Positions 18,801 to 56,760 of a stretch of DNA of 64,000 nt are shown piece by piece (the stretch's first letter is position 1; each line of letters starts with the position of its first letter). Under the pieces are notes generated by a model that worked only from the letters and a program-made list of their open reading frames with translations, made no database searches and was not told the DNA's origin. The stretch is from Cladocopium goreaui (Eukaryota > Sar > Dinophyceae > Suessiales > Symbiodiniaceae), in NCBI GenBank assembly GCA_947184155.2, contig CAMXCT020006641.1:97501-161500 (forward strand), read 5' to 3'. A program made the translations under genes and the position numbers.

Positions 18801-19459
18801 TGTTCCAGGATCATAGCCAAGATTTCTCGTCCCATAACATAGGTTCCTCTTCGGCTATGACTCTGTGTTCTCAGTCTCAGTTTGATTGCTACATGACGAG
18901 CAACATCACCGGCTTGGGCTATAACGTTTGACAATGCAATTGACAACTTGGCGTCTATTGATTGATATCGTTGCCCTCCACTGTCATTCAATAGCTCAAT
19001 GTCAGGATTTGGTCGAATAGCCGGCTGTAACCATGCTTCCCACGCAGCTTTGTCTCCATCATTCGCAGCAAGAACAACACTCTTGATGAGATCTGACTGC
19101 CAAACCCCAAGGTTCTGTTGCTTTGGCCATGGGCTAACATAAACTTTGTCAGCCTCCCGTCTTGACATTCTCGGTACTTCTTCTGCCGTGTATGCCGCTG
19201 TGGAGATGTCGTCTGCTGAATCACGTTGCGATCCTCGAACTGAAGGCAAACCAGGAGGTTCTGGAGGTGGTCCTGGACCGTTGGGCCCGAAAGGGTCAGG
19301 AGGTCCATCAGGGTCAGGCGGACCACCCCATCCGCTCGGAGGCTTGTAATAGTCCTTCTCGGTTCCGTCGGCGATCTTGTTGTCGACTTCTTTCAGCAGA
19401 TCGGTGATTCTCAGGGCTGACCCTAGACATAGACGTTTCAGAATCCTTGAGACTCTTTC
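12596..19459 (-). CDS. Copia element ORF2: Gag-protease-integrase-RT-RNase H polyprotein
   Basis: Residues are counted from 19249. A Gag region (about 100-260) is followed by a Lys/Ala/Pro linker and two CCCH zinc fingers (HFHFIKKACRKGRDCEYSH near 350; CWHWAKGKCRYGDKCNKRH near 405). The aspartic protease motif LDSGSG is near 606. Integrase has an HHCC-type finger near 880 and D, D, E residues near 921, 984 (SDDAPQF) and 1013 (LAERTN). Copia RT has YVDD near 1746. RNase H has DADFAG, STPEAE and ADIHTKGF up to about 2100. The frame is open from 19459, overlaps the end of ORF1 by 146 nt in the +1 frame, and encodes a Gly/Pro-rich linker there. The first ATG is at 19168, so translation starts either by +1 frameshift from ORF1 or at that ATG. 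No catalytic motif is missing. Confidence 0.93.
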   Translation of the reverse strand, partial: ERVSRILKRLCLGSALRITDLLKEVDNKIADGTEKDYYKPPSGWGGPPDPDGPPDPFGPNGPGPPPEPPGLPSVRGSQRDSADDISTAAYTAEEVPRMSRREADKVYVSPWPKQQNLGVWQSDLIKSVVLAANDGDKAAWEAWLQPAIRPNPDIELLNDSGGQRYQSIDAKLSIALSNVIAQAGDVARHVAIKLRLRTQSHSRRGTYVMGREILAMILEHFRTPGQRETAFTMEHIVSMKYLGDSNLEVFYEKWMEMVSNMMPDDVPPDDWLRDALYKKIRNSSLMMFDIKQYESWIEGDQRRSYRYLLDVIERHISRIREDKHVAAREKYARDFAGGGKPTAPAPNPTAAAPDANPKAKPKATPKEKAAPKAKAKADAAPVLPSPQPKQHAKGKGKGQGKGKDRANSRSASPRSKKKIPCHFHFIKKACRKGRDCEYSHDQKVFDASKNAKGNGRKPGTPRSQSPANKTKKVDEPCWHWAKGKCRYGDKCNKRHDPHLFNTAPNTEASSSKATPALVHEWSDDEGTFHKVASNVVKKKVGFDESKTYVQTYVKKDFVKCSRKSQTISKGHGKVGKPTDQIRQDEQWSYSCRLASSRGKAMAILIDEKVEYSDIDEVLVIVGPSLDILIRLDIEDGEVSREVFVENYVQHIEGRYGKRGNTMCITVPVEERDKRFILDSGSGHDLISSTRISRMDLPTYDDKVVNFHTANGVTCSTKRSSIKFEAFNEPAEAHILEDTPSVISMGKRCVDLGYSFVWPTGRTPFMLDPNGNIIEMTVKDYIPYVSVDQEKRKLKSSCVEKIMAVLDDGCSTSEGEGLLVIDGESGDELEDLSDSVGRSDVKSPKRSMKKRKKAKLRGDQHEVAVGSDAGDAEEMSCYADEYAEFEDDGYDPSIAPDDIHEDHQVEVEEIPEGGGGEDDDDVIDVDEEDGGVRLSKRGTLKNEARSKVHLLTHRYKNPYCESCVRAKMKHRKTFRGAFQRKLTKFGDLITFDYVDNRRIAEQDYGDDKTIFVIRDRYTGMLQSYPSARKDTDAVIRAVKQFMGRRKIREAYSDDAPQFDKAMKILKIPMDTSLAGKTKHNSLAERTNQFVLVATTTCLLEAGIPPCFWMYAIRCVSHLLNIEPNDDEVSSWCKLHGEEFKGKMIPFGALVYFKPSGSREREQQHKFDPMGIPGVFAGYSIGPGLHWSRKYRVWALCDWSKQNLAYDAEKPIAKLRTPHYTERVELKEPLEFPCKLEYERINVSIEGLKVKDRLEGNPEILPPPPPDDGDDDEGGDDDDGHDGGGVPSSKVPREPTEGELEAERHFDAISERMGPPGIDKPAHPDLHVPERGPEHYSVGKAGDGIVYLNDDGEWVKLNARGHPYRIDERGFRRISTTPRPSKYTPDEWRKMSPTVRKGIARAEEKKIEAEKEKKKSDAKIKESEERAKRKEEKKKEKEAKKAKSSKKDDKDDHVSGVATSQDHVRRGKVFQYGKGSASPVGRGISASAPCYSDLSDTDVPDDDDFLMEWDEWSEIEKGRGPKATWNNDKVYDFNQGKVVAAATVHNTNEVPQDARGLSDVFLPFPCMPCINHCDDHREKIAPNGDGININKMFNTAVARPVGRKEMMENDDARKAMRKEWLGQHACGVYDFSVIREYDDVVREAKANKTEVHMARVHGICVEKNYQLPAGSPSRKFKGRGVLLGNQVKNQFWEAAFFQDLGNSPATFEASRWADFYGCLPGHNVKLADAIQAYIQAKLTGPPCWVELPEDAWPDDVDIRKFRRPVVRLVKALYGHPDSGTMWEQHCDRKVRELDFVPVGEEWPSMYFHKKLKLLLVIYVDDLKLAGPEENLTKGWEMLRSKLNIEPETDLGLYLGCVLRKGSTKLHDGTPVSTMTYDMEGLLKLSVEKYLDIVGKDTKLKHVSTPSLPEETKKHKSRAPCPGNPKNKKICPWCTHEFDPDAPLFYEQGTQGEDVSPGESERGALAPHAASVLMKLLYAARIARFDLLRSINSLARNVTKWTIDDDAKLYHLMCYVNSSLSKRMTGWVGDNFNELTLSLFADADFAGCAQSLRSTSGSHMHIQGNHTRFPLSGGSKRQGCVSHSTPEAEIVAADVTLRTMGLPAMSIWETLTGKSPKLLFHDDNQGMIGVVRSGRNPTMRHLERTHGIAITSLHEHFTRENYVLMYEVTSKMAADIHTKGFKNPLAWKRACMLINLLDPGDIGTKDLLDMVSHPPRMSIPLSDKCFKPKLKMFQIFRIPKYLFYHLRCIRRVFLVKNKYNNYLVWIPYWLLRRQLSLENDHLVYHCPMIV
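15023..15032. repeat. CCCGACGGGA box inside ORF2
   Basis: The sequence TCCCGACGGGAGAAG is shared exactly with the leader copy at 21242-21256. The core is a perfect stem with a three-base loop. Two further core copies lie in the 3' untranslated region. Function unknown. Confidence 0.5.
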
Positions 19460-39950: not shown

Positions 39951-42900
39951 CTAAAGGTATTCGAAGGTGAGAATGACAGCTGCAAAGGGTAGCTGGAACA
40001 AGATTGTAGGGAGGTACGACGAATAAAATTCAAAACCATGGCATCGCCACCATGGATCATTGACGCCAAGTCGGCTGATATCGTCAGCCCAGTTGCTCTT
40101 GCTCTGGACGTACTCCCAATATCCTTGGGCTCGCAGTGCAAACAGAGCTAGATGGATCAAATGACCTAGCTTCGCTAAGTCGGCATTGCTAGAACGTCCT
40201 CTCACTAGCGTCATGACGGCTGCTACGTTGTCCAAAAACCATAGGCCGTGTCGGTTTCGAAACAGATCAGGCCTTTCGACAAGGGCGTAGAGCACCATAG
40301 ATAGTTCCAATTGGGCGATATGCGTCTCTGCAGGTTGCCAAAGTGTTCGGAGCTCTGCACAGTTGGTCGCGACAAAACTGTGACGAATTTGTGATCCGTC
40401 AGGTTGGAAAAAGATCAGATGAAAACCTCCTGAACCAGGATTGTCTGCTTCGACAGCTGCGTCGGAGGCTGCCAAAAAGCGCAGATGATCCAGGTGCAGA
40501 ACGGGAAATTCCCGCTTTGGCTGAAAGCGCATAACCGCTTCGATCACCCCGAAGCATGCTTCAATCTCGGGAGTGATGGTCGAGGTTGTCTCGTCTTGCC
40601 TGGCTTTGATGGCCATGAGGCCGCCATATCCCACTCGACCGTAGATTCCCTGTTCCAGGAAATTGGCCAAGCCGTACAGCTTCGATGCTGCCCCTCGGCT
40701 AAAATGGCCAGTCACCCTGGCTGTTGCCAACATGTCACGTACTTTGTCATGGAGCCGTTCTCGAGCCCAAAACTGTACGTGCCCTGTTTGGTTGATGGAG
40801 CTGAGATCATGAGTCAATCCCAAAAAGGTTCCGGTGCTCTGCATTGGTTGTTTCTTGTCCTCTGCGAAGGGGGAGCCGATAAGAGAACACAATTGATTCA
40901 TGGCCCATTGGCCTGACCCTTTTGAGGATTGCAAGTCTGTAATGGTCGCATCATCAAAGTACAGGGATGTCAAAACTCGGCAAAAACGCCTGGCTAGTGC
41001 CTCCAATAGTCTGGAAAAACGGTTGAATGATGTAACCGCCAGCGGCAGTCCGAAGAGTAGCCCAGCGTAGACTTGGTATGCAGGGGTTTGCCATTCGTGA
41101 TGGTACCACACCACCACGCAGCCCAGACTTTCCTGCAATGCCATAGGGCAATACCTGTATGCTGAAGGCAGATCTTCTTGTCCTGTTTCCCAGGCATCGT
41201 TCGCGAAGAAATCGGCCATCTCATCCTCTGTCCAACGATGCATTGCAAGGCGAATGTGCTGGGCAGGACGCAATGGACTGCACAATGTGAGCTTGTTAGC
41301 ATCAGACGACAAGGCTGATTGTCCTCCGGTGTCCCCATTGTCGATCACACGCTGCTTGCCTGAGCTCTGTGTGATCACGCAACGCGGGATCAATCGATGG
41401 GCCTTGTTGCCAATGGCCCGCAGGAAATCTGTCCGTCGCAAGGGCTCTGTGCAGAAACCATTCGCTGCGTCCTCCAATGACTGCTGCAGGAGGAACTCAT
41501 CATCCTTGCCTGCTCTCAGCTGGCCCAAGATGTGCTGATTGTGTTCCTGCCATCCCTCCAACACATCTGCCATGCTGATCACCTCAGCTGGCTGTTGGGG
41601 GAATATCCCATAAGGTGGTGCGTAGCCCACTGCAGGCAGCCCACGGATCAGACCATAGGGAAAGCTGGTGTCTGCCCATGATGTCAGCAGCATCAGCAAT
41701 GCGATGAGCCCCACATCGCGGTGCCGTGTTACCTGCTGGACGGCCGGCTCTTGGAAGGATCGCAAGTGGAGGGTCACCCCCTCCCAGCGTCTCTTCAGCT
41801 CTCGCATGGCCCCGACTGCCTGCTGTCGCCACGGGCGCAACTGCTGGCCATGTGCCACATAGGCATCTGCTACGAACTCCAGGTCTAAGTCGACGACTGG
41901 GAGGTCTTCGTAGGGCAACGGGTGCTGGGCTCGTTGGACTGCTTGGTTGAAGTGGTCCTCAGGATCCAAGTTGAACGGCAGCAGCGGGGGCAAAGCGGCA
42001 CGGTGTGTCATCGCACCCACTTGGCACCCGTCCCCAATCCGTGCAAGCTGCCTCACTGACCCGGCAGCCAGATGCGGGACTAGGGGCCCGTCCCAAGCTT
42101 CTCCTCGCTCTGCAAGCCAAGTGGCATATGAGCAGAAGGGCGGGCTGTTGATGAGGTCTTCAATCATTGCAAACTTGTAGTTCTTGAACCAGTGCTCGGG
42201 GAAAAGCTTTTGGAATGCCAATACCAGTGCTTCTTGGCTCATCATGGGTAGGGCTACCCCCCTGGGAATAGCCTGGATCCCTTGCAACAATGCCACAGTC
42301 CTACTCCATCGGCCATCGGTGCCCCGCTGCATTGGGTCACCCCCAGGGGCGGTGGCATCGAAGAAGAGGCCAATGAGCATGTCCGCTTCGCACAGGTGCT
42401 CCATGGGGCAGTCGCACGCCAGCTCCATATTGCTAAGCTCATGCAAGGCGTCCCACAAAGGTGATGTTCGAATATGGACAATGTACCTGGCCGGCCATTC
42501 ACCGGCTTCGCAGTTGTGGCCCGGTGTCCATGGCGATTTCCACTTGGTCGTCGATAGGCGATGATGAAAGCTGCCTCGGCCGACGTAGATGGTCTTGCGT
42601 GGTAGCTTGTTGTTCTCGATCATCACCTCCTTGACGAGCCTTCGGACCGGTAACCCCGATCGTTCAGCCCTCAAGGATTCTGTGAGGCCCAGCGTCACCG
42701 CCAGTGGTGCCATTGCCCACTCCCGCATTGCGCGCGGGTCCATATCCAGCCAATGTTCACGGCGTCCGACTGACATGAACGTGGGCATGCGTGGGACATG
42801 CAGGACGGCTAGACCTGTGCGGACTGCCCACCAACTAGCCGACACTGCAATGGCAAAGGCAAGGACTGCTGTGTACTCTGCCTCTTCTTTGGATGGGTAG

Positions 42901-43520
42901 AACCGCTGGCCGTCGGAGGTGTAGGGGGTCCATTCCTGTGGGTCGTGCACATGGTGGCAATTGGCTGGGGGCCAGCGTTGGATCTCCTCCACATTGTGTC
43001 GTAGCACTTGATGCTTACAACGCGCCCCACCCAAAGTACATGCCGCGTAGGCTGTGTCGAACCATTGTCCCGATTCCCACATAGTCACCTCTGTGGACGT
43101 CCACCAGTGCAAGGAGCGGGCAGGGTTTTCACGCACACTGCCTCCCCCCCTATCCCGCAACTTCTGAATTTCTCCCAAGACATAGTTGCAGGCTTTGTTG
43201 TCAAGGTCGACTCTTTGGGCATCCCGGCTGTTGAGGTGAGGCAGGCCATCAGGGTAGACCTCGGATCGAAGAGGACCAGGGGCTGGCCGCCCGTCTTCAA
43301 ACTTCCTGGGGATCTCCCTGGCCCTGCTCTTTGTCGAACAGTCGATAGCTGCCGCTATGAAGATCACCTCTTCAAGCTGTTTGCTCAGGGAGTGTTGCCG
43401 GCGCTCATCTGACAGGTCATGGCTGTCATCCAACAACCAATCCACTGTAATGCATTGCCACCCGCAACTGATGAATGCTTTGGTGAGGGGTGCGTTGGGA
43501 CCTGCCATGAGATCTGCCAT
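39951..43520 (-). CDS. YR element Pol: MTase-like, DUF4326, RT and RNase H polyprotein
   Basis: 1,189 aa from the ATG at 43520. Residues 1-165 look like a Rossmann methyltransferase: DLMAGPNAPLTKAF (motif I region), AAIDCSTKSRAREIP (motif IV-like, with Cys) and ENPARSLHW (motif VI-like). Residues about 307-382 match DUF4326: IYVGRGSFHHRL, KWKSPW, then LACDCPMEHLCEADML. RT runs from about 710, with the catalytic YFDD near 853 and the DIRS-like GLPLAVTSFNRFSRLLEAL before it. RNase H has SDAAVE near 1017, an E near 1070, LDN near 1097 and ADDISRL near 1147. The frame is open upstream to 43592, overlapping the Gag ORF by 49 nt in the -1 frame, so expression by -1 frameshift is plausible. The ORF is intact. 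Confidence 0.88.
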   Translation of the reverse strand: MADLMAGPNAPLTKAFISCGWQCITVDWLLDDSHDLSDERRQHSLSKQLEEVIFIAAAIDCSTKSRAREIPRKFEDGRPAPGPLRSEVYPDGLPHLNSRDAQRVDLDNKACNYVLGEIQKLRDRGGGSVRENPARSLHWWTSTEVTMWESGQWFDTAYAACTLGGARCKHQVLRHNVEEIQRWPPANCHHVHDPQEWTPYTSDGQRFYPSKEEAEYTAVLAFAIAVSASWWAVRTGLAVLHVPRMPTFMSVGRREHWLDMDPRAMREWAMAPLAVTLGLTESLRAERSGLPVRRLVKEVMIENNKLPRKTIYVGRGSFHHRLSTTKWKSPWTPGHNCEAGEWPARYIVHIRTSPLWDALHELSNMELACDCPMEHLCEADMLIGLFFDATAPGGDPMQRGTDGRWSRTVALLQGIQAIPRGVALPMMSQEALVLAFQKLFPEHWFKNYKFAMIEDLINSPPFCSYATWLAERGEAWDGPLVPHLAAGSVRQLARIGDGCQVGAMTHRAALPPLLPFNLDPEDHFNQAVQRAQHPLPYEDLPVVDLDLEFVADAYVAHGQQLRPWRQQAVGAMRELKRRWEGVTLHLRSFQEPAVQQVTRHRDVGLIALLMLLTSWADTSFPYGLIRGLPAVGYAPPYGIFPQQPAEVISMADVLEGWQEHNQHILGQLRAGKDDEFLLQQSLEDAANGFCTEPLRRTDFLRAIGNKAHRLIPRCVITQSSGKQRVIDNGDTGGQSALSSDANKLTLCSPLRPAQHIRLAMHRWTEDEMADFFANDAWETGQEDLPSAYRYCPMALQESLGCVVVWYHHEWQTPAYQVYAGLLFGLPLAVTSFNRFSRLLEALARRFCRVLTSLYFDDATITDLQSSKGSGQWAMNQLCSLIGSPFAEDKKQPMQSTGTFLGLTHDLSSINQTGHVQFWARERLHDKVRDMLATARVTGHFSRGAASKLYGLANFLEQGIYGRVGYGGLMAIKARQDETTSTITPEIEACFGVIEAVMRFQPKREFPVLHLDHLRFLAASDAAVEADNPGSGGFHLIFFQPDGSQIRHSFVATNCAELRTLWQPAETHIAQLELSMVLYALVERPDLFRNRHGLWFLDNVAAVMTLVRGRSSNADLAKLGHLIHLALFALRAQGYWEYVQSKSNWADDISRLGVNDPWWRCHGFEFYSSYLPTILFQLPFAAVILTFEYL

Positions 43521-43543
43521 AAGAGGTCGCCCCTCTTGCGGCT

Positions 43544-44790
43544 CTAGCTCATCTGACCCAAAAGAGGCAGCCGCCTCCTCTTCTGGGGCGTGTCAACGCT
43601 TACCAGTGCAATTGGCTGCACCGTGGTTGAACGCTCCACATACCGATCTTTCCTGACAACTGCTCCGCATCGATGGGCTCCCTGAGGACATGGTTTGGCC
43701 TTGCAGCCGCCTCGTTGAAATTGCGGGCAAAGTTTGGTACCATCCTTCATTGCCGTCGCCACGGGTTTGCCATTGATCGGCTTGCGCAACTTCAAGGGTG
43801 ATGTGCTTGGCGGCACCTTAGATGGACTTGCAGTAGAGGCTGCGGTGGGGGCTGCACTCTTCCTGTCCGGGGTAGCGGGCCCTGGTGCAGACCAATGTGC
43901 GTCCATGGACGTGTAGATCTCGCTGATCACCTGTCCCAAGCTCATCGTAGACTCACGAAATTTGGACACCCACTCACTGCGTTCCTCCACGTCTTTGGCC
44001 TGGAGCCATTGCATGCGCTGTGATGTAGGCAAACCTGCCACACTGCGCTTGGCTCTGAAGTAGTACTTGTAGACGATGTCCATGGGGACGTTGACAAACT
44101 TGACTGTATCGGCTCCTAAGTTGAGCTCTTGCGCGGCATCTGGTGCTCCGGTCACCCCAGAGCACCCTGCCATGGCATAAGCCAACATCAGGGTGAACAA
44201 CCTGTCCAGGTAGTTGTCGACATCATGGGTAACCACCTCCTCATCGTCGCCATCTTCCAAGAACAGTCCTTCGCTGAGTTTGCGCTTCTTCTGCGATGTA
44301 GTGAGCTGGAATTGAAGGGTTTTCACTCTCCATATGTTGTACACGCAAAGCATGCGCTTCTGCATCTCTCTGGCGACTCTGGAGATGGTGGTATCTGCTG
44401 GATGGATCTCTGGGGGGAAGCGCATCTTGTAGCGTCTCCAAAACTGCTGCTTGGTGTCGCGCAGCTCGGTCTCCCCAAGCATGGTGTCCAAGTCCGACAG
44501 TGCAATCTTGGATCGATCCTGCTCCACCTGACGAAGTAGAGTCCCACTGCGGCCCATGCTCTGCGGACTCGAGCCGTCATCAGCAGTGCCTTATCCCCCA
44601 GGCCCAGCTTAGCAACCCAGGGCTCAATGGCTTGCTCCGATGCCCAGAGGAAACGAAACTCTTGCAAACTTTCGACGCCCAACCGGAGCAGGGCTGTAAT
44701 TACCCCATCATCCAACGAGAAGTTGTCACCCAACTTCCTTAGGATTTCCTCTGGGGAACCCTTTTCCAGTGGGACTTTATCAGTCTCCAT
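43544..44790 (-). CDS. YR element Gag-like protein with CCCH-like finger (frameshifted)
   Basis: The N-terminal part starts at the ATG at 44790 (METDKVPLEKGSPEEI) and the rest, to the stop at 43544, lies in another frame. The two frames overlap around 44535-44560, where the sense changes from one to the other. A single-base indel, an assembly error or a -1 shift would explain it. The body is helical and charged, with a Pro/Ser/Ala-rich linker followed by a zinc cluster, CPQFQRGGCKAKPCPQGAH. A near-identical module occurs in the recombinase ORF. By position and zinc finger it is Gag-like. The start of Pol follows within 25 nt. Confidence 0.65.
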
Positions 44791-45311
44791 GGCCTATTCT
44801 CGAGGACACCCCTCTAGCTAAGGCCCAGGGATCCCCTCCCTTTGACTGAAAACTGCGCCTCGGGTCTCCCCCGTGCGTTGTGCTGGAACAGCCTGGCGTG
44901 GCATGAAATAAATGGACCCTGACATACACTGATGTGAAATCTGGACATGTGTACAACGCACAGCTATGTTGCGACCTCACATGACATCACCTTCATGCCG
45001 CCACAGAGCTATGGTACACTAGACTATCTGAGGTCCCCCTCCCAGATGGTCTTGTGCGTTGTCATGAAAGGAAAAACTTGAAAAACACAACGAAAGGACA
45101 TGAGGGCACGGCACTTGCTCAGTGGGCACCCTACTGAAAGTCACCTGGCTCTACTATTTTCCTCTCGCGCATGATGTTACTGCTGGGGGCGGTCATGCAG
45201 GCTGGATTGAAGCTCTTATCCAAGCCCCGAGCTGATGAATTCGGCTCTCCATGGCCGGAACGGGCCAGTGCTGCTGATCAGCGCAAAGGCCAAAAATTCG
45301 GCTTGGGCATC
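44791..45311 (-). other. Non-coding spacer inside the YR element
   Basis: 520 bp between the recombinase ORF and the Gag ORF. No long frame on the minus strand. It may carry a second promoter or splice signals; I see none clearly. Confidence 0.45.
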
Positions 45312-48300
45312 TTAGGCAGGCGGCCACCATGACGCTGGCACTCGACGGAGGCACTGGTCACACCAGGGGCGCTCCCATGCCAGAGCTTCAAAGACGTCCG
45401 TGGACATGTATGGGTTCACCAGGCGCTTCGCCTTCCCATCGGCCTGCTTGTGCTGGCACAAGGTGATGCCGTCCTCGACCGTGACATGGGTGCTGGACCT
45501 CTCCGTAGCTGCATATCCCTGCGGCTCGGGGGGCTGTGTTCCCACCGCGGTGTCCTGGAAGGTCTTGTGCAGCCACTTCCGCATGCCTTGGTCGCGAATG
45601 ACCTTGTTCAGCTCTGTATCCCTGCGGCTCTCCACGTAGTGGTTGGCATCCTCAATGGACTCGCCGGCCAGCAATGCACGGCAGAGGATGCCTAAGAAAG
45701 CACCCCGGTGTCGCCCCTTGATGCAGTGCACCACGACGTTGTCGCCGTGCCAAACAGTGTTCTTGACGGCCGGCCACACGTCTGTCCACTGTTCGTTGCG
45801 TTCCTGGCTGTATGCCGCCGCGAAGGTCATCAACTGAGCTCCCGGGAGGGTCACCCCCCCCCGGCTCTCAGGACCATTCGGGAAGCAGCAGATCTGCAAC
45901 GCTGTCTTGGGGAACTTGTCCACCGTCTGCCTCATTGGAAGTCCTGCCAGGTAGATGCCACCACCCTTCCGGGATGTCCAGATGCAAGTCGGGGCCTGGG
46001 CTGTCCCTGAGCCCACACCCAACCGCTCCAAGTGGAGGTCCAAGGTGTCTCCTGCTGCCTTGCCATGGCCTTTCTTTGGCATGGCCTTGATCTGTGGCTT
46101 CCCAGGAGCGGCCAAGCGCTTCGGCGTTGTGGTTGTAGCCCTGGACTTCGCAGCTGTGGCCGGTGGCTTAGGTGTAGTGGCTGCAGCCTTCGGAGGTGTC
46201 TTGGGGGCTGCAATGGCTGGCGCCTTGGGCGGAGTCTTGGGTGCAGCCTGACCTCGGGCTTTCTTGACAGCTGCGCGCATCACCTCGGCCATCTCGTCGT
46301 CAGTGGCACCGCTCGCCGCGGTCCTCTTCCGGCCAAAAGTGGCCTTCTCCCCCACGGCTGCCGGCACCAAGGTGGCCGATGGCTTGGGTGCCGCTGGCAC
46401 TGCTGTTGCGGCCAACACCGCCCGCTTGATGTTGCAGACGCCTGCACCGTGCTTGCCACCACATGCCCGTCCTGACTTTTGTAGAATGGCACACAAGTGC
46501 ACTCCGAAGGGGCAGGAGTCTGCCGGATTCGGGCACTCGTCCGTCTGGAACTCCGGGCAAATGGCCTTACCATTCTTCAAAGTGGCCGTCAGCACCTTGC
46601 CATTGAGTTGATCAGGCATCTGAGGTGCCGGTGCGGCTACGGCCTCTTGCCGGGCTTGCTGTGCCGCTTCAACAAACTGCTGTGACAACTTGAGCCTCTT
46701 CTTCACGTCCTGGAAGCTATGTGCAGAGGCCCAAATAGGCTGGCGGTCTTGTCGCAGCAACCTGTCAGCTTCAGTAAGGCCATGAGCTCGGGCTGCATCT
46801 AGCTCTGCCTGCGGGATCGCCTCCCACAGCAGGTTGCTAGCGAGCTTGGCCGTAGCGCCCCAGATCAGGGATTTCACCTTGACTGACGCGGCGTATTTTG
46901 CCGAAGAATAGTGAAATGCCATCGCCCCCACCTCTGGTTGCTCACTCTTGTTTTGCCAGTCGCCCAGGGCTGCCATTTCTTCAGGCCTGCATCCTAACAA
47001 CTGGGCCACCGTGGGTGCAAGCCTCCTCCAGCTGTAGGTGGTCAGATCTTCTGGATTGTCGAGGAACACGGACATTTCCTGTTGCATCGTCTCTTGCACT
47101 TCTAGGATCGTCCATGGGCGCCCTTCGTCCGAGAAACAAAGGCCTGCAAGTCTCTGCCTTGCTGGTGCCAGCGTCCTGTATGCCTCCAGCACTTCCTTGG
47201 CCCAAAAGAAGCCGTTGGCGAATGTGGCCGGCACCGCAAAGTCGAAACCTTCGCGGGCATGCTTTTGTTTTCCCTTAGGGCACCTGCAATGGAGGAATGC
47301 AGCGGTGAGGCGCCGAGGTTCTGACCGCGCGATGTGCGCATACCTCAAACAGCCAAACGACATGATCCAAGGAGCCAGAAGAACTGACCACCTCTCATCG
47401 CCGACCGCGTGCAACTCCGTGATGCGGTCCTCCAAGGCCTGCACTAATGGCGGCTCCACCACCGGTGCTTGCCCACGCTGCCCAGTCGCCCTGGGTGTTG
47501 TAGGCACTTGCAAGTTTCCCAGCTCCATGTCTTGGTCGGCATTCTTGTTCATCCATTTCAAGGCTTGGAGTGCTCGTGCTGGCGCCTGGGTGTGGTTGAG
47601 GAACTGATCCAGGTCGACCATTCCAGGAGGAGCGGGTCGCCCCCGACTCTCCAAGAAGGCCCTCAGCTCCAACCAGGTGTTGACCACTCGGTCAATGGTC
47701 GCCTTCTCCGCGTCCTTCACCTTCTTCTCGGCGATCCTCTTGCACGTTTGTTTCCATTCGGCCTTGAGGGTGTCTGTCAAGATGCCAGCTGGTTTGTATG
47801 CGCCCATTCCGACAAACATCGACACCAAGCCGTTCACCCGCTTTTGGACGGCCTCATCCAGGTTCTTGGTGACGTTGACGGCCTTGGGCTTTTTCTTGTA
47901 GATTGTCTTGCGCACAGGGCGCAGAGTGACGGAACCCTTGGGGTTGTCCTCCACGACTTTGGCCCCAGCAGCAAGGAGGTGCTCTTCCACCCTTGCTCTT
48001 GTCTGCAGCCAGTCATCTGCTACGTGATGGCCAGCTAGTCCAACGACTTGATCGTAGTCGGTGTAGGCATAGGCGAAGTCGTTGTCGTCCAGGAGGCCTT
48101 CGTTCTCCCTCCATTGACGCGCACGCTGTGCAGCTATCATCATCAAGGAGTCGGCTGCTCTCCATCCCGGTTCAGGGTCACCCCCTGACGAGGACGAAGC
48201 TGCCGCTTGAGCTGCATAGTAGCCTTTGCCGCCTGATGCCATGGCGCTGCACCCTAACAAGATTGCTAAGGTGCGGAGAGCAAAAAGATGCTGCGGTGAC

Positions 48301-48323
48301 TTCAGAGGTGCCTCCTCTGTCAT
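45312..48323 (-). CDS. YR element tyrosine recombinase fused to zinc finger and DSP-like phosphatase domain
   Basis: 1,003 aa from the ATG at 48323, which lies four bases after the stop of the preceding ORF. The same frame is open further upstream, but there it is a shadow of ORF A. The recombinase is at about 300-480: first Arg in GCLRYAHIA, a H-x-x-R box in the form TTYSWRRLAPTVAQLLG (His replaced by Tyr), ALGDWQ, and a Tyr in FHYSSAKY. A zinc cluster follows near 590-615 (CPEFQTDECPNPADSCPFGVH). After an Ala/Pro/Lys linker, about 770-920 resembles a dual-specificity phosphatase, with the P-loop VVVHCIKGRHRGA (HC-x5-R) near 860. A Cys pair-rich C-terminus ends the protein. I know of no YR element with such a phosphatase domain. 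Confidence 0.82.
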   Translation of the reverse strand: MTEEAPLKSPQHLFALRTLAILLGCSAMASGGKGYYAAQAAASSSSGGDPEPGWRAADSLMMIAAQRARQWRENEGLLDDNDFAYAYTDYDQVVGLAGHHVADDWLQTRARVEEHLLAAGAKVVEDNPKGSVTLRPVRKTIYKKKPKAVNVTKNLDEAVQKRVNGLVSMFVGMGAYKPAGILTDTLKAEWKQTCKRIAEKKVKDAEKATIDRVVNTWLELRAFLESRGRPAPPGMVDLDQFLNHTQAPARALQALKWMNKNADQDMELGNLQVPTTPRATGQRGQAPVVEPPLVQALEDRITELHAVGDERWSVLLAPWIMSFGCLRYAHIARSEPRRLTAAFLHCRCPKGKQKHAREGFDFAVPATFANGFFWAKEVLEAYRTLAPARQRLAGLCFSDEGRPWTILEVQETMQQEMSVFLDNPEDLTTYSWRRLAPTVAQLLGCRPEEMAALGDWQNKSEQPEVGAMAFHYSSAKYAASVKVKSLIWGATAKLASNLLWEAIPQAELDAARAHGLTEADRLLRQDRQPIWASAHSFQDVKKRLKLSQQFVEAAQQARQEAVAAPAPQMPDQLNGKVLTATLKNGKAICPEFQTDECPNPADSCPFGVHLCAILQKSGRACGGKHGAGVCNIKRAVLAATAVPAAPKPSATLVPAAVGEKATFGRKRTAASGATDDEMAEVMRAAVKKARGQAAPKTPPKAPAIAAPKTPPKAAATTPKPPATAAKSRATTTTPKRLAAPGKPQIKAMPKKGHGKAAGDTLDLHLERLGVGSGTAQAPTCIWTSRKGGGIYLAGLPMRQTVDKFPKTALQICCFPNGPESRGGVTLPGAQLMTFAAAYSQERNEQWTDVWPAVKNTVWHGDNVVVHCIKGRHRGAFLGILCRALLAGESIEDANHYVESRRDTELNKVIRDQGMRKWLHKTFQDTAVGTQPPEPQGYAATERSSTHVTVEDGITLCQHKQADGKAKRLVNPYMSTDVFEALAWERPWCDQCLRRVPASWWPPA

Positions 48324-48327
48324 AAAA

Positions 48328-49164
48328 TCAACCTGCAGCAAACATCTTCTTACGTCCTCCACAAGTGCTGCAGGGCTCACGCCAGGTGAAGCAGTCACTA
48401 CACATCCCGACGCAGCATGCCCAGCACACGCGCCTGGTGGGATCTCCGCACTCTGTGCAGGCGGTGCCCAGCTGAAGCATGCCTGCATCCTGGCATTCCA
48501 GCCATCCACATAGCGCTCGATGTGCCCTGGCGCCTTCTCTCCCCCAGGCCACCCAGGGTCGCCCCCTAGGTGCTCTGGGGAAATGCCGCGGCTCGAGGAA
48601 GACCGGTAGGAGCTCGTGAGGGCCTGTGCATCTGAGCCAGCTCCTCCATTGATCGAACAGCTCCCCCAAGCCCAGTTGCCCAGCGTCGCCCGCTGAGCAC
48701 CTGAGCTGCAACCCGTAGAGATCCTGGGGCACGATGTCAGCGGCCACTTTGTGCTTCGTATAGGCAGCGACCAGCAGCAGGTCCATGGGGTCCTGGTGCT
48801 GGTAGTAGTACGCCCAAGCATCCGCAGGCGCCACATCATCGGGCAGCACAACGCCACGGCTGTTCCACAAGCCGAGCCACGGGAACTTGAACCCCCCCAC
48901 ATGAGCTGCGCAACGCTGGCAGTCATCAAGGCAACAGGGTAGCTTCGGCAGGGGGGGGAAAAGCTCTGAATCTGTCCCAGTCGTGATGACGTAGGGGGAA
49001 TGCAACACTTCAATGCCATGCATCCAGCATGTGTATGCTGCAGCATCAGAGCCCTCCCGCGCCAGCCTTTCCACGTGGCTCTTGAACTCCAGGAAAGCAG
49101 CAGCATGAAGGATCTTCGCCTCAGTGGCTGCCGGGATATCGATTCCTGGGAGTTTGCGCTGCAT
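48328..49164 (-). CDS. YR element ORF A: small Cys-rich protein
   Basis: 278 aa from the first ATG in frame at 49164; the frame is open to 49224, but only a GTG lies there. The C-terminal 40 residues hold a Cys-rich finger: CTECGDPTRRVCWACC, then MCSDC and CSTCGG, like a zinc ribbon or degenerate RING/B-box. The rest is unrecognised. The stop lies four bases before the recombinase ATG, so the two may be translated from one mRNA by reinitiation. It is the first ORF after repeat X, about 115 nt downstream of the spliced-leader-like sequence. Confidence 0.7.
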   Translation of the reverse strand: MQRKLPGIDIPAATEAKILHAAAFLEFKSHVERLAREGSDAAAYTCWMHGIEVLHSPYVITTGTDSELFPPLPKLPCCLDDCQRCAAHVGGFKFPWLGLWNSRGVVLPDDVAPADAWAYYYQHQDPMDLLLVAAYTKHKVAADIVPQDLYGLQLRCSAGDAGQLGLGELFDQWRSWLRCTGPHELLPVFLEPRHFPRAPRGRPWVAWGREGARAHRALCGWLECQDAGMLQLGTACTECGDPTRRVCWACCVGMCSDCFTWREPCSTCGGRKKMFAAG

Positions 49165-49237
49165 ACAAGGTCGCCCCTTGTATATAATTTGAACCACCCA
49201 ATCAAGGTCTGGAAAGGTCACCCCTTACCAAGACCAA

Positions 49238-49514: not shown

Positions 49515-52068
49515 TCATTGGTTCAAAACCAGTTGGCGCCATTGCTTTTCATTCTGGACAAAAAATAACAGATTGCGAGTACTACCTGTAAAGGAAAGTG
49601 CTAAAGAAAAAACTTCAGGTATCCAATCTTTACCAGGCCGGCCTACCCTTCTCAGATATCGAGATGTAGCAGCAGTGTATGTGCCAGGTTCAAACGAGAC
49701 TTGTCTCAGAGGGTGGTGCGGGTGGCAACGCAGAATCTTTCCCAAGAGCAACAGCTGTTTTCGTTCAAGAAGTTTGGACACTGGAACGTGCGCACTTCGT
49801 TGCCAGACTTCAGCATTGGATGTTCTGGACAAGAAAGATAGCTGTATTCCCAAAATAGAACGCAAACATCTGTTCTGGAAACCATCTAAGCGACGTTTTT
49901 CTTGCTTCGTCAAAACCAATGCGCACAGGCTATAGAGGAGCCTTGATTCAACCACAGTTTGTAAATTTGCACTTTTTGGCGGTAGTGCAGCGATGAATGT
50001 TTCCAAACCTTCTGCAGTGCCGTAAAATCACTTTTGGCAATCCCAATGCGTCTAGATAGTTCGTTGCCATGCTTACCATCAGCAGTCATCATCGTGCCCA
50101 AGTACATCATACATTGCTGTGTCTGTATGCACGTGTTGTCTGGTAAACGAATATCAGGACTGCAACGCACACCTAGGAGTTGGAATTTGCCATCGTGAAG
50201 TTCCATGCCATACTTGCGACCAGATGCCGCTACAGTCTGCATGTATTCAGTCAAGTACAAAGTGGATACTCCCATCAACAGCGTATCATCTGCATAGACA
50301 ACGTCAGCCAAACCCCCCCGTTCAAAAGCCTCCCTGGCAGCCCCCTGCAACATGCTGAGCGCATCGTGCATCAGAACGGACATGAGGATAACAAAAATAA
50401 GGGGACTTAAAGTGCAACCTTGGGAAATTCCAGACATTTGGCTATGTAGGGCAGAAGTCTCACCACAGTCTGTGACGAAGAAATGTCTGCTTCGCATCAT
50501 CGCACCGATCATGTGAAAACCTTGTGGCAAACCAAAACGACGTAAAGCATCGAGTAAGCTATCAACATGTACACTGCCAAAGGCTTTCTTCCAATCCAAA
50601 GCAAGCAATTTGATCTGTCCAAAGCGGGCTGCACAAGCATTTTCAACGTGTCGTCTAGCAATATAAATAGCATCTTCCGTACCGTAACGCGGTCTGAAAC
50701 CAAACTGAGTTTTCCAAAGCGCACCCAGAACCCCACCACCAACGAGTCTGTTTTTGAGCATTGCTGCAAACATTTTGTAGGCAATGCATAAAATACTGAT
50801 CGGCCTGTAGTTGTCACACTCAGCAGGATCACCCTTTTTGAAAATCAAAGCCATGGAAGCAGTAGACCAAGTTTGCGGCACTGCTTTCTGTTCCAAACAT
50901 CGGTTGCAGAAGTCCAACACCCAAAGCATTTCGGCAGACCCAGAAGCCAAAAGAGCTTTGAACACTTCACTTGGGATATCACCTTGTTTGGTAGCTTTGT
51001 TTGGGGCAAGCCTTGCAACAGCAAATTCGAGTTCCTGAATGGTGAACGGGTCTAAGCCTAAGCTCACTGGCAATTCCGCACGAAGCGGTGGCTCAAGATC
51101 CGGGATCAAAGTTGCAGGACGAACCCTCCACTGTATATTTTCCAAATGTTCTGCAAAAGTTTCAGCGCGGAGATCAGAATCCACGAGTTCCCCACGACAA
51201 TTCTTTAAACGACCTTCTTGCTTACGAGGACCCTTTTTCAAATACTTGAATGCATTCCAGCTCTGCGACGCAACCAAATTCTCCAGCCAGTCTGCTTTGT
51301 CTTTGCGCACAGCGACTTGGACAGTCTTCCTAAGGCGTTTCTCCTCTGGTCAGTTCCCATTTTCCCTAGCAGAACGCTTGGCGGAAATCAACCTGAGAGT
51401 ACCTGAGCTAATCCATGGCCATTTTGCGACAGGAACATTGACAGGAACAACCTTGGCAACTGACGAGTTTACTCTTTCACACCAACCCTCCCAAGCGGCA
51501 TTGATGTCTACATCCAGCGGACTGCTGGCAGGAACTGCTTGCAGTTCCAAGGCTAAGCGATGTTGTGTTGCAGTGTCTTTCAAAGCAGAAAGGTGCAAGC
51601 GGCTGACATGCTTACGGGGAGAAGATTGAGGAATGCGCACATCAAGGATAGCACTGCTGATCTATCACTGAAAACGTCACGAATGTGATTTTTGAAATGT
51701 GCCCCAACAAGTAAAAAATCAAGCATTGCAAAACCTGCCTCAGAAACCGGATCTGCTGGTCCAACATGCGGCTCATGGTGTGTTACCAGTCTCTCTTGTG
51801 GTTGTGGGCAAAACGTGTTTGCAATTATCATCGCCAAACTTTGACACCACTCAAGCAGCAAATCTCTGTTCGGGATATCAACTTGATGCTGGGCAATTCT
51901 ACCAAAGCAAAAATCACCAAGAACATCATCTTCACCAATTTGACGCTGGCCAATGCGTGCGTTGAGGTCGCCAAAAACCAATTTGGGTCCGTTCACTGAC
52001 AATCTGCCCATCACAAAAGAAAGGTCTTCATAGAATTTCAGTTTGTCATCAGCAGGTTTCAGGTTGAT
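49515..52068 (-). pseudogene. 5'-truncated LINE (endonuclease-reverse transcriptase), broken
   Basis: Read on the minus strand: the C-terminal part of an APE-type endonuclease (KLVFGDLNARIG, later AMLDFLLVG) from about 52068; then RT with YRPISILCIAYKMF, FGFRPRYGTEDAI, SGISQGCTLSPL and the catalytic VVYADDTLLM near 50290; then a typical post-RT tail to the stop at 49515. The endonuclease N-terminus is missing. There is a frameshift at about 51580-51640, an in-frame TGA at 51350-51352 and another frameshift near 49935. It lies downstream of and in the same direction as the PPDK-regulator gene. Confidence 0.88.
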
Positions 52069-52460: not shown

Positions 52461-55074
52461 CTTGCGGCGGTCCAGAATTTCCATGATCCGGGCAGCTGTT
52501 TCAACCACACCAGCGTTACTTGTGTCCTCAAGCCACGGAAATCCACGGAACATCTGCAAAGATTCCAGTGATTCCAGGTCTATGGAGCAAGACAGCTCTA
52601 GAGGATATGACAGAAGCATGCAGCAACCAAATTCAATAAATTGAATCCCAAGCTGATCATGGCTTCATCAGCAACTAAGAGTGGTGCTATGATCGGCCAC
52701 TTTGGGCCCTTTCGCCTGAGCATGCTGCCAATTACACAAAATCAAACAACCAAGAAGAAAGTTCCGGTAGAACGACAGAAAGGGAACAACAAATGATCTG
52801 CTTTGTTTGCTTTCGAAGCGGAGTGCAGAGACAAGCCAAACGAGTGGCAAGTAAAAGTTCTTGATCCAGCTCACTTCCTTCTTGATGTTTGTCCTCAGAG
52901 CAAGATTGTGTTAACGATGGCACTAGCGCCCGCGTTTAGGTCTTACAAAATCTTATTTTTCACACCATGGTTTCTCCCTGGTTCATATGCTACAAGTTCT
53001 TGTCGCACTTTGATGCTATACAATTTCACCCCCTGTGTTTCAAGCAGCAGTTCTTGCAACATTTGCAACAATGTATGCAATTTTGAGTGTTGTGGCATGT
53101 TTTGGCACTGTGTCCCAACAAAAGCACCTCCGTATCAGTCCCGCGAAGATTGTCAACTCCAAGGAACAAATTGGCATACTGCGTGTTGGAACGATTAAAC
53201 TGCTTCATTCGCTGAGTGCCTCAGTGGAACAGTATGGAACCATTGTCGCCAAATGGTGTATCCATCGGCGATAAAGAGAACACGTCCAAGCCACGAATCT
53301 CCCGTAGTCTTTCAGGCTTGATCTGCAAAGCAAAACACTTCTGCTGATCAAGCTCAAAAAGCTCCTGAAACATTTGAAACATCCAAAAAAATGAAAACAA
53401 TTGTTAAACAATTGTTAAAACAATCCAAAACAATCCCATTATCTTTCCAGGCCATGGACATCAGAATGGAAACGCTGTCCTTCGGTGGCTCCTCCTCTGG
53501 CACCAAAGGATAGTTTGCCACCTGAAATTGCTGGTGGAGTGCGAAGCAGTGGCCAGGGACAGGCTGTCGCATGCTAGGCACCAAAAAGATCTCAACTGAC
53601 ACAACATCCAAGCTTCACGTTTCACCTCCCTCAAGATTCTACCCGACTTTTTGAGAATACGGTCATTTCCAGCCTTATAGCCTCTCTGTGCCAAGTAGAA
53701 TGACAAGGGTGTCTTTCCAGCTCGAGATGGCCCAATCAGCATTACGTCGCACTCGTTCCAAAGGTGGGGTAAAACCTGGGGTGCTCCCTGCACGTCTCAC
53801 ACCACAACATGCCGGACGCCTTTCATGATGTGCCCCTGAAATTTGCAAGTTGGTCATAAGCCCAGATAAATCCCAATCAACCCTAGTTGTCGGAAGTTAT
53901 GGGTAGTCATAACCCTATTTTGGATGGTATTCGCAGAGGCCGATCATTCTTGGACCCTTGGACTCAACCAAGTCTGCTACACGATTTCCAACTCCAAAAG
54001 GCCAACAGCTTTGGTCAGCTTCTTTGAGACAACAAAGCCTATGCAACTTGGCACAAGAAACGCCATCATCCACCTTTCGAGTGTACTCAATGGCCTTCAC
54101 CTGGGCAAGGCGCTTCCAGACTGAGCATGTACTTGAGATATCTTGAGATATGCTGCAACCTGACTATGTAGCAACATGTAGCGACTATGTACCAACTTGC
54201 AAACGTCTGGAAGTCTGTGAGAGAGAACTCTCCGAGACATTTATCACCGTCAGTGCTTTCTAGGAATACGTTTAGTAGTTGAGTAGTCCACAAGAGGAAG
54301 AGTCTTGAGTCTGAAAGCCCAGCCACAATAGTCATGTAATCATCACTGACTGTTTGTCGCCGACCAGCTTTCCCGCTGCGCTTTGCACCAAATCTTCTCT
54401 CAAACGAGGCTAACAAAGGACCCCAAAGGTCTATGCCTTCGGAGTGAAAACTTCAGACTTGCGAGTATCTATCCCCCAAACGAAAGAAGAACTTGGCATC
54501 GTCACGAAGAATGACAAAACACCAGGGAAACAAAAGATGTTTCGTTTTAATTATATTGATCTCTACATAAAACCCAAGTGACACAGCACATCACCTCAAA
54601 TCCATGGAGCTACAGTATCTGGAAGCCAAGACGCATTCAAGCTCTTTGGCCGTGCACTCATCAGCGAGAACTCGCTGCAACTTTGGATCCATGATTGTAT
54701 AGACCTCAGAGTCTCAGCCAAGTCCGTGTTGGCTTCGCAAGTCACCTCTATCCAAGTTATGGGTGCCGAAAGTCAATGGGAGCTCACAGGCAATCAAAGG
54801 CAAATGCTATTCAATCGTTGCTTTATCGGAATCAAGACTCAGTGGTTGGCTAGCAAGGCATTGGACTTCTTGGCCGCTTGGACAATGGTCTTGATCTCTG
54901 CTGCCGATCTCACAAATCTGTAGACTGTAGCGCGGCTCGTTGCACATGTCGACCCGGAACAGTACTCAAACTGCGCAGCCGCAGTTTTCACCGAAGCATT
55001 TGCGGATTCCCCAGTGCTGTCCGATAAGACAAAGATGTTCACGAGCTGACTGGCAGCACAGGTGTCACCATCAC
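52461..55074 (-). CDS. PDRP1: PPDK regulatory protein domain (bifunctional kinase/pyrophosphorylase, DUF299), spliced
   Basis: Ten exons: 55074-54851, 54704-54635, 54436-54327, 54100-54062, 53775-53674, 53521-53480, 53364-53296, 53211-53160, 52877-52837, 52553-52461. Phases agree at every junction. The joined protein follows the family end to end: VLSDSTGESA at the start, NALLVYTIMDPKL, DLWGPLL, AIEYTRKVDDG, the P-loop MLIGPSRAGKTPLSFYLAQ, VANYPLVPEEEPPKELFE, then LEDTSNAGVVETAARI. Known members use ADP to phosphorylate pyruvate,phosphate dikinase and Pi to reactivate it. Donors include GT, GC and GA; acceptors are mostly AG|G. The start is not here: the first exon joins in phase to the cyclic-nucleotide-binding exons upstream. 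The last exon ends at a GTGCC that may be a donor, so a short tail may be missing. Confidence 0.85.
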
Positions 55075-55156
55075 CTATGCTGCAGTGCACAAAGGTTTTG
55101 AGGGATTAAAACAGTGCATCGCCTTCTGTTGTTTCAACTGTTTGCGCACCCCCCGC

Positions 55157-56348
55157 CTTCATCATCCTCATCGTCGTCATCGTCATCTTCTTCTTCCGTT
55201 TGAGAAAGAATGATGGAATCGAATGTGGCTCGATCCAAGCGCAACAATCGGCAGGAGGTCTGCGCAGAAGCTGAGCATCTGTGAGGCGTATTGCCCAGCA
55301 AGCATTCAGCACCGATGTAACTCCCCTGGCTCACTGGGCGCCGTTCTGGCTCCACTCGTCCAGCACGGGGGATTTCCAACAAGACATCTCCCTGGCAGGG
55401 AACAGCATTGAACATCATTGAACAGCATGCAGGGAGATTACTGTACTAGTATCCTGCCATTCTTGTGATCCTCATTCTCCCCCTACTCCTCCTCCTTATC
55501 CTTCTCGTCCTCCTCCTCCTCATCATCATCATCATCATCATCATCCTTATCCTTGACATCTTGAAACAGTAGAATTGCATGGTATGATCTCTGCCTTTGT
55601 CACCCCAAGAGTTTCAGCCTTATGTGTCTCAACCCTCAAGACCATAGCATGATAGGATCAGTGGACAAGATTTGGGCATCACTGCACCTCTGCAATGATA
55701 TACATACTGTCATCAGGTTGTCCTTGCTGAGCGACAATCTCTCCTTTCTCCACTGTGATTGGTACCATGGTTCGGGCCAGCTGCAGAATGACATCCGTGT
55801 TGCTCTTGCGCAGCACCACCAACTCCTTCACCTCTGGTAGCACCTGAGATGCAATAAGACAATGTGATGAGAAAACGTGATGGTGCATGTGCATGAATCG
55901 ATGGATCTGACAATTGCGCTATTGCACATTCATCATGTTGAAACGACCAAAATGCGTAATTTGTACATCTTTGTAAGGTATACCAGGCATAGTTCTCAAG
56001 TCATAGTATCACAACGCTCGAGCGCTCAAACACTCAACTTGACCCTGCTCACCTGTCTCAGCAAGGAGATGTCGTCATCTGTCAAAGTTTCAACGCCTGC
56101 CTGAACCAAACGCAGACCATCTAGCAGGAAAACGGCCAGTATTGCGCAAACATATTTGGTTAAGAGGTCCATCCCAATTATTAACGGGGCTTGTCATGCC
56201 ACCTCTTTCACTTTGATGTATACAACTCTCAGATCTTACTCTGCGACTCCCAGCCTTTTCAGCATCTTGGGCATGACGATGCACCCGGCATGCTTTTCGC
56301 CGTCTGGTCACAGCCCCTGCTGATTTACGAACAGCGGCACGGCAGGCA
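55157..56348 (-). CDS. Cyclic-nucleotide-binding domain exons, 5' part of the same gene
   Basis: Exons 56348-56240 (Arg-rich), 56100-56053, 55843-55688 and 55391-55157 join in phase. The last two give a cyclic-nucleotide-binding domain: VLPEVKELVVL helix, VEKGEIVAQQGQPDDSMYII, AEGDVLLEI across the junction, SYIGAECLLGNTPHRCSAS (phosphate-binding cassette region with E and R), and LLRLDRATFDSII. An Asp/Glu run follows. The final exon ends GAAG with a GC donor in phase 1, and an 82-bp intron leads to the first PPDK-regulator exon, also phase 1. Unspliced, the frame would stop at a TGA at 55134. Upstream exons and the start codon were not identified. Confidence 0.75.
55495..55560. repeat. CTC/CAT trinucleotide-rich tract in an intron
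   Basis: CTCCTC then CATCATCAT run between two exons of the cyclic-nucleotide-binding domain. Confidence 0.8.
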
Positions 56349-56491: not shown

Positions 56492-56760
56492 TCACAACTC
56501 CAACTCGAAGCCTGCCACCGCCAAAGCAACTGGCCCATGCTTCAGGACCTTGTGAGCCTGTCTGCCAGCACAAACAGTCCCCAGGACCAATGGCATGTTA
56601 ACATTGAGAGCCCTCCACACCTCAAAACCATTCACTGGCCGCCCAGTGAAGTGACTGCCAGCACCAAAAACTTTGCCACGGGCATCGAAAGCGTGCGGTA
56701 GCGCGCATGGCTTCAGTGATTTACTCAGCATCGCTTTGCCGATCTTCTGAATATATTGAA
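56492..56760 (-). CDS. Candidate coding segment upstream of the CNBD exons
   Basis: An open minus-strand frame of about 90 codons (IGKAMLSKSLKP, then FDARGKVFGAGSHFTGRPVN, then MPLVLGTVCAGRQA). The composition looks protein-like but I recognise no family, and splice sites are unclear. It could be a further upstream exon of the same gene or chance. Confidence 0.22.

Follow-up and report, generated by a model that had tools for sequence, protein, structure and literature searches.

A predicted PPDK-type regulatory protein with a fused, non-canonical cyclic nucleotide-binding domain in Cladocopium goreaui and other algae

The regulatory proteins of pyruvate, phosphate dikinase (PPDK) in plants and bacteria are switches driven by ADP and phosphate. 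In a 64,000-nucleotide stretch of DNA from the dinoflagellate Cladocopium goreaui (contig CAMXCT020006641.1, positions 97,501 to 161,500; here called the window), the first-pass annotation had placed exons for such a protein next to exons for a cyclic nucleotide-binding (CNB) domain, and proposed that the two form a single protein which may tie carbon flux through PPDK to cAMP or cGMP. Two questions are raised by this locus: whether the two domains belong to one gene, and whether the CNB domain has the makings of a cyclic nucleotide sensor. Our literature search, which was thin on subscription journals, found no publication linking a cyclic nucleotide-binding domain with the PPDK regulatory protein or DUF299; automated database names already display both domains.

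Three-frame reading, corrected against relatives, gave one gene on the minus strand (56731–52461) with 16 exons encoding 528 amino acids from a start Met (Table 1). All 15 introns are in phase, with AG acceptors and GT, GC or GA donors, types familiar from dinoflagellate genes. From its N-terminal extension the protein runs through the CNB domain (PF00027) and an acidic linker into a full-length Kinase-PPPase (DUF299) domain (PF03618). The exons of the two domains lie on the same strand and are joined in phase 1 across an 82-bp GC-AG intron (donor GAAG/gc, acceptor atag/GTGA), exactly as first annotated, and the acidic linker encoded by exons 5 and 6 does lead into the SDSTGES motif at the beginning of the Kinase-PPPase domain. 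An in-frame TGA (55136–55134) falls within the same intron. The proposed gene start at 56348 had to be given up in favor of the ATG at 56731, which adds exons 1 and 2. A 470-residue draft based on the earlier start, with an extra GAPQ and with exons 12–14 wrong, was replaced after comparison with the relatives P0001 and P0003; relatives also served to adjust several exon borders toward the 3' end. The first homology search and the first Pfam scan were run with this draft, which scored 235 bits for Kinase-PPPase. Since exon borders were picked with the help of homology, their agreement in phase is no independent test of the model; the uninterrupted proteins of relatives provide one.

Table 1. 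Exons and other features of the fusion gene, in window coordinates.
Feature	Position	Strand	Basis
Exon 1, start ATG and N-terminal extension (MLSKSLKPCA...)	56512..56731	-	P0003, on a transcript-sized contig, also begins MLSKSLKPCA
Exon 2, Arg-rich stretch of N-terminal extension	56240..56316	-	In phase; aligned with P0003 (AVAG.V.RRR)
Exon 3, beginning of helical lead-in to CNB domain	56053..56100	-	Identical in Cladocopium goreaui P0002
Exon 4, CNB domain, first half	55688..55843	-	Gene model and Pfam
Exon 5, CNB domain, second half, and acidic linker start	55157..55391	-	Gene model and Pfam
Phosphate-binding-cassette equivalent GSYIGAECLLGNTPHRCSASA, aa 190-210	55263..55325	-	P0003 vs PKA regulatory domain, gapless; conservation
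82-bp GC-AG phase-1 intron between CNB and kinase/PPase parts	55075..55156	-	Gene model
Exon 6, linker end and Kinase-PPPase start (SDSTGES)	54851..55074	-	Gene model and Pfam
Exon 7, Kinase-PPPase	54635..54704	-	Gene model
Exon 8, Kinase-PPPase	54327..54436	-	Gene model
Exon 9, Kinase-PPPase (EYTRKVDDG)	54062..54100	-	Gene model
Exon 10, Kinase-PPPase, P-loop GPSRAGKT (aa 408-415, 53733-53710)	53674..53775	-	Gene model
Exon 11, VANYPLVPEEEPPK	53480..53521	-	Gene model
Exon 12, Kinase-PPPase	53295..53364	-	Gene model
Exon 13, Kinase-PPPase	53168..53219	-	Border from P0001/P0003
Exon 14, Kinase-PPPase (TNIKKEVSWIKNFY)	52849..52893	-	Border from P0001/P0003
Exon 15, RKGPKWPII	52688..52715	-	Border from P0001/P0003
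Exon 16, DTSNAGVVETAARIMEILDRRK, last recognised exon	52461..52526	-	Gene model

A deposited model of the same gene, P0002, is identical to the window protein over 382 residues (AGVETL to NFYL), save for 16 residues missing from P0002. Its first residue is an internal Met, part of the CNB domain is missing from it, and its C-terminal end is unlike that of other relatives. The relatives carry a 14-residue C-terminal tail (GDAVAASYQSSMAV) for which no convincing match was found on the window's minus strand, by a search that would miss a split or diverged exon; the best-scoring place, at 23086, was rejected as it has no AG directly before it. A search for a spliced-leader relic, allowing up to 3 mismatches, gave 0 matches, which is neutral as to a separate acceptor.

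The independent test comes from relatives. P0003 (510 aa, longest contig 1,608 bases; DEDDEGDGDTCTASQLVNIF) reads uninterrupted across the same CNB/kinase junction, and so does the MMETSP transcript P0005. The genomic locus covers 4.3 kb and has 15 introns, so the simplest explanation of an uninterrupted frame on a contig of 1.6 kb is a transcript; because such transcript-sized contigs cross the junction, we rejected a reading as two genes. Among the matches listed, at least 55 distinct database proteins carry both the PF00027 and the PF03618 label: 36 from the search with the draft protein (best 120 of 183 matches listed) and another 3 and 16 from two alignment searches (92 and 85 matches). 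Both domains were found again in all 8 of these proteins that were rescanned. About 8,000 candidates were scored per search, so that these counts bear on those candidates rather than on all algal groups and the spread of the fusion is a lower bound. The named holders among the matches listed are dinoflagellates and chlorarachniophytes, with gene models in Durusdinium, Cladocopium, Effrenium, Polarella and Amorphochlora, along with MMETSP and EukProt transcripts, including a record labeled "Lotha..." (P0034) that we take to be Lotharella, and many contigs of about 1–2 kb. On this sequence evidence, we regard the fusion as real and as the product of one gene.

The profile match of the first domain (cNMP_binding, 52.5 bits at residues 145–229 of the final 528-aa model, cut-off 27.5) and its fold place it in the CNB family. 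The fold is that predicted for the relative P0003, whose model was used as the query in a structure comparison (VIA aligned 999 of Foldseek's best 1000 chains) and matches the cNMP-bound domains of the protein kinases PKA and PKG. In PKA and PKG (e.g., 2qvs, 5j3u, 5dyk) the CNB domain partners a eukaryotic protein kinase, whereas that of the window protein partners a PPDK-type regulator. Five of five fusions scanned also matched the Encapsulin 2B profile NF041163 weakly in the CNB part (22.6 to 45.5 bits, cut-off 400). This candidate was set aside and the match is taken as general CNB resemblance; a search of solved structures with the family profile puts alveolate PKG/PKA chains high, with no encapsulin in the best 60 of 212.

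In canonical cAMP- or cGMP-binding CNB domains a Glu of the phosphate-binding cassette contacts the ribose. The cassette Arg contacts the cyclic phosphate, according to the available part of PMC10959531. The cassette of P0003 aligns without gaps to that of the Toxoplasma PKA regulatory domain 5j3u, where G-D-Y-F-G-E-L-A-L...P-R stands against G-S-Y-I-G-A-E-C-L...P-H in both P0003 and the window protein, and the canonical Glu and Arg are accordingly replaced by Ala195 and His204. The replacements extend through the window's subfamily: in all 29 rows (P0002 included), A or S occupies the Glu position, and one of Q, H, L and Y that of the Arg. Over 40 rows (the window protein and 39 fusions) the Glu position is A in 28, H in 5, E in 4, D in 2 and S in 1, and the Arg position is Q in 20, R in 8, H in 7, C in 2 and Y, L and S in 1 each. 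Five chlorarachniophyte-type rows have His at the Glu position and keep the Arg. A second dinoflagellate paralog (P0122 of Effrenium, P0194 of Durusdinium and their kin), termed clade 2, has the same two domains as the window protein. Among its 21 rows with a cassette (22 aligned, several being near copies), the Glu position holds Glu in 19 and Asp in 2, and the Arg position holds C in 15, R in 4, S in 1 and P in 1, so that the Glu or Asp is kept while the window subfamily loses both contacts. Four of the 21 combine an acidic residue with Arg. Glu and Arg occur together only in P0043 and P0192 among all fusion rows aligned for the pocket. An alternative register, in which the canonical pair would be Glu196 and Arg205, likewise nine apart, was rejected, as the P0003–PKA cassette alignment is gapless and a Glu is present there in only 10 of 28 rows.

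Despite the loss of both contacts, the cassette, with the signature FGAxxLLGNTP[QH][KR], is the most conserved stretch of the CNB domain. In 28 subfamily rows (P0002 omitted as the same protein as the window's, rows unweighted for relatedness) its mean relative entropy is 3.06, compared to 2.31 in the rest of the CNB domain and 3.28 in the catalytic domain, and it ranks first among 93 windows of 21 columns. This is unlike what plain decay of the pocket would leave behind. At the residue following the lost Arg (PKA position 210, Arg205 in the window protein), 25 of the 28 rows carry Lys or Arg, and this conserved basic residue could hold an anionic ligand, a cyclic nucleotide included. The conservation of the cassette could also be due to folding or to an interface. 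PKA position 202 is Cys197 in the window protein and T, C or S in 25 of the 28 rows, with a Glu in one (P0013).

The history of the fusion was approached through trees of the catalytic domain, read without a root or a direction of change. In a tree of 71 rows (5 rows were dropped by a trimming pattern), the 35 sampled fusions fall on one branch (94/80) with three rows lacking the CNB domain, P0029, P0030 and P0032, nested inside among the window subfamily. P0029 may be truncated. P0030 and P0032 have other N-termini in place of the CNB domain, which suggests that the module is perhaps dispensable in places. A second tree of 65 rows, from which these three rows were deliberately excluded and P0186 was dropped by pattern, places 44 fusions on one side of a branch (96/90): 26 of the window subfamily, 14 of clade 2 and 4 of the chlorarachniophyte type. 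These are 44 of 56 fusions, counting the window's own; the 12 absent from the tree are near copies, fragments or sequences left out for other reasons. Clade 2 lies in the same fusion branch (P0122 was in the tree, P0194 was not). The neighboring branch (98/84) holds PPDK-regulator paralogs of dinoflagellates that lack a CNB domain; P0038, P0041, P0046 and P0051 share the Kinase-PPPase domain but carry a different N-terminus of about 250–390 residues without a Pfam match. The trees are consistent with one old fusion event, and on the 65-row tree the cassette Arg must have changed 3 times or more.

A pocket without the cAMP/cGMP residues but with another conserved signature most likely belongs to a module that binds a non-canonical ligand or works free of ligand. 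Hence we favor, as the probable reading, a PPDK regulatory protein with a repurposed CNB module over a classical cAMP/cGMP sensor. One gene would encode a bifunctional ADP-dependent kinase and Pi-dependent pyrophosphorylase, preceded at the N-terminus by a CNB module that an acidic linker connects to it. Reversible phosphorylation by the catalytic domain would turn PPDK off and on, and the role of the CNB module would be to modulate this switch through either activity or placement.

A more specific version, which we put forward tentatively, is that the CNB domain senses a new, non-cyclic ligand and tunes the PPDK switch directly, the cyclic-phosphate Arg having been given up in both dinoflagellate paralogs after one old fusion. 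One paralog would have exchanged Arg for Gln or His with a neighboring Lys or Arg, and most of the other would have acquired a conserved Cys; the first pocket might read, for example, an adenine nucleotide or a metabolite and the second the redox state, which would explain why the pockets are conserved. A partial likeness exists in the PKA regulatory subunit of trypanosomatids, in which, according to the available part of PMC10959531, polar residues replace the cassette Arg, Ala202 has become Glu, and nucleosides have taken the place of cyclic nucleotides as ligands. The dinoflagellate subfamily shares the replacement of the Arg by a polar residue, but Glu at position 202 is confined to the single row noted above, and the window protein lacks the trypanosomatid combination of Arg loss with Glu202.

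Somewhat doubtful, in our judgment, is that the CNB domain is a purely structural part with an empty pocket, which positions or dimerizes the enzyme or docks it on PPDK or on a membrane, although this overlaps the ligand-free branch of the favored reading. The lost contacts and the separate change of the Arg in clade 2 agree with such a role, and ligand-free CNB-type domains occur in KCNH channels, but a purely structural part has no obvious need for a cassette that is the best conserved portion of its domain.

We consider it unlikely that the domain still binds cAMP or cGMP, perhaps by way of the conserved Lys or Arg, and links the control of PPDK to a cyclic nucleotide. The good Pfam match, the likeness of the predicted P0003 fold to cNMP-bound domains, the basic residue beside the lost Arg, and the Arg kept in the chlorarachniophyte-type fusions and in the four clade 2 rows that pair it with an acidic residue would all fit. 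However, both canonical contacts are replaced throughout the 29 subfamily rows, and in PKG I-alpha the change Arg177Gln weakens cGMP binding to CNB-A more than 10^5-fold (PMC9417419, available part). Arg177Gln also activates the kinase (PMC6684604, available part). The link from cAMP or cGMP to PPDK in this alga, as first proposed, is therefore not one that the predicted pocket favors.

The identification of the second domain as a PPDK-regulator-type kinase/pyrophosphorylase is, on the other hand, upheld by the sequence and the relatives, by the tree, and by the fold predicted for one relative. Kinase-PPPase scores 264.6 bits in the final model (residues 259–521, profile 1–256 of 256, cut-off 23.5). 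The window protein keeps the motifs GPSRAGKTP, SDSTGE, DDG and KVAN, which are largely invariant in the alignments; the P-loop pattern is present in 55 of 56 relatives and missing from the gene model P0006. The closest solved structure to P0003 is the maize PPDK regulator PDRP1 (5d0n, 5d1f), whose match is limited to the kinase/PPase part and the linker (residues 199–497); we know of no CNB domain described for it. According to the available part of PMC9138534, ADP is the phosphoryl donor of the PPDK regulatory protein, whose C-terminal domain contains its only active site. We infer control of PPDK itself by the window protein from family membership. That this half acts instead on another substrate, such as PEP synthase or another dikinase, appears improbable. 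DUF299 does include PEP synthase regulators (same source), and the profile NF003742 (cut-off 225) spans PPDK and PEPS regulators; P0003 (253 bits), P0010 and P0036 exceed it while the other two of five fusions scanned, P0122 (219 bits) and P0043 (215), fall just short. Against this stand the closeness to the maize structure, scores far below the cut-off of the PEPS-specific profile NF049928 in all five, and the listing of ppdK for the F. kawagutii genome in a review figure legend (PMC6780300, available part).

It is hardly credible that reading exons by eye created the fusion as a chance splice between neighboring genes: the junction intron is indeed short with a GC donor, and P0002 is partly wrong at both ends, but the pair of domain labels recurs in the 55 or more proteins, among them transcript-sized contigs, MMETSP transcripts and P0034, and the junction region aligns.

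As far as predicted proteins can tell, the conservation of a CNB fusion among algae, coral symbionts included, suggests that carbon flow receives an additional input at the pyruvate/PEP step. The conserved non-canonical pocket turns what it binds, if anything, into a testable question. The family also offers natural variants on one tree, from the near-canonical pockets of P0043 and P0192 to fully changed ones, a series useful for the study of ligand loss or change in CNB domains.

The N-termini differ among the fusions. Three of the five chlorarachniophyte-type rows (P0034, P0036 and P0127) have a hydrophobic, signal-peptide-like start, and P0033 and P0035 have shorter N-termini without such a stretch; as an impression from hydropathy, plastid targeting is possible. 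By eye, an Ala/Val-rich stretch that lies deeper in the sequence and precedes Arg can be seen in many rows of the dinoflagellate type.

In the second dinoflagellate paralog of the CNBD-PPDK-regulator protein, represented by sequences from Effrenium and Durusdinium among others, 15 of the 21 rows carry Cys in place of the pocket Arg of the phosphate cassette; the pocket Glu is retained or is Asp. The relatives concerned are P0121, P0122, P0184-P0190 and P0194-P0199. The pocket cysteine might be redox-sensitive. Within the window's own subfamily, P0030 and P0032 are nested among the other members, lack a CNB domain and have N-termini of a different kind; secondary loss of the domain is possible, as is their being isoforms.

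Upstream of the fusion gene, the stretch LQDAVWTALYAHYTEQHHEA is similar by eye to IWAPLYAHYAEQHHQAV, a part of P0006, a relative known as a gene model. This part of P0006 may represent a merged neighbouring gene that is conserved beside the fusion.

Directly downstream of the fusion gene lies a LINE-type element, and its presence may be the reason why the last 14-aa exon of the gene was not found.

Features of the window outside the fusion gene
Feature	Window position	Strand	Basis
Three very long ORFs, overlapping frames (2744, 477, 2287 aa)	3253-19459	minus	
Three long ORFs (1213, 348, 1301 aa)	39951-49217	minus	
LINE-type element	49910-52068	minus	
Reverse transcriptase RVT_1 ORF	49910-51349	minus	Pfam, 103.9 bits
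Endonuclease-like ORF	51580-52068	minus	By eye; no Pfam match
Stretch similar to part of P0006	57335-57252	minus	By eye

One of the three very long ORFs contains a CCCH zinc finger together with an RVT_2 match slightly under the Pfam cut-off (30.2 vs 31.6 bits), and another contains a Tpt1/KptA RNA 2'-phosphotransferase-like stretch, also under the cut-off (22.7 bits, cut-off 26). In the other group, the 1213-aa ORF carries DUF4326 above the cut-off; the 348-aa and 1301-aa ORFs have no Pfam match. Window positions 1-2000 differ in composition from the remainder, with only 25% GC and a strongly T-biased plus strand (AT skew -0.62).
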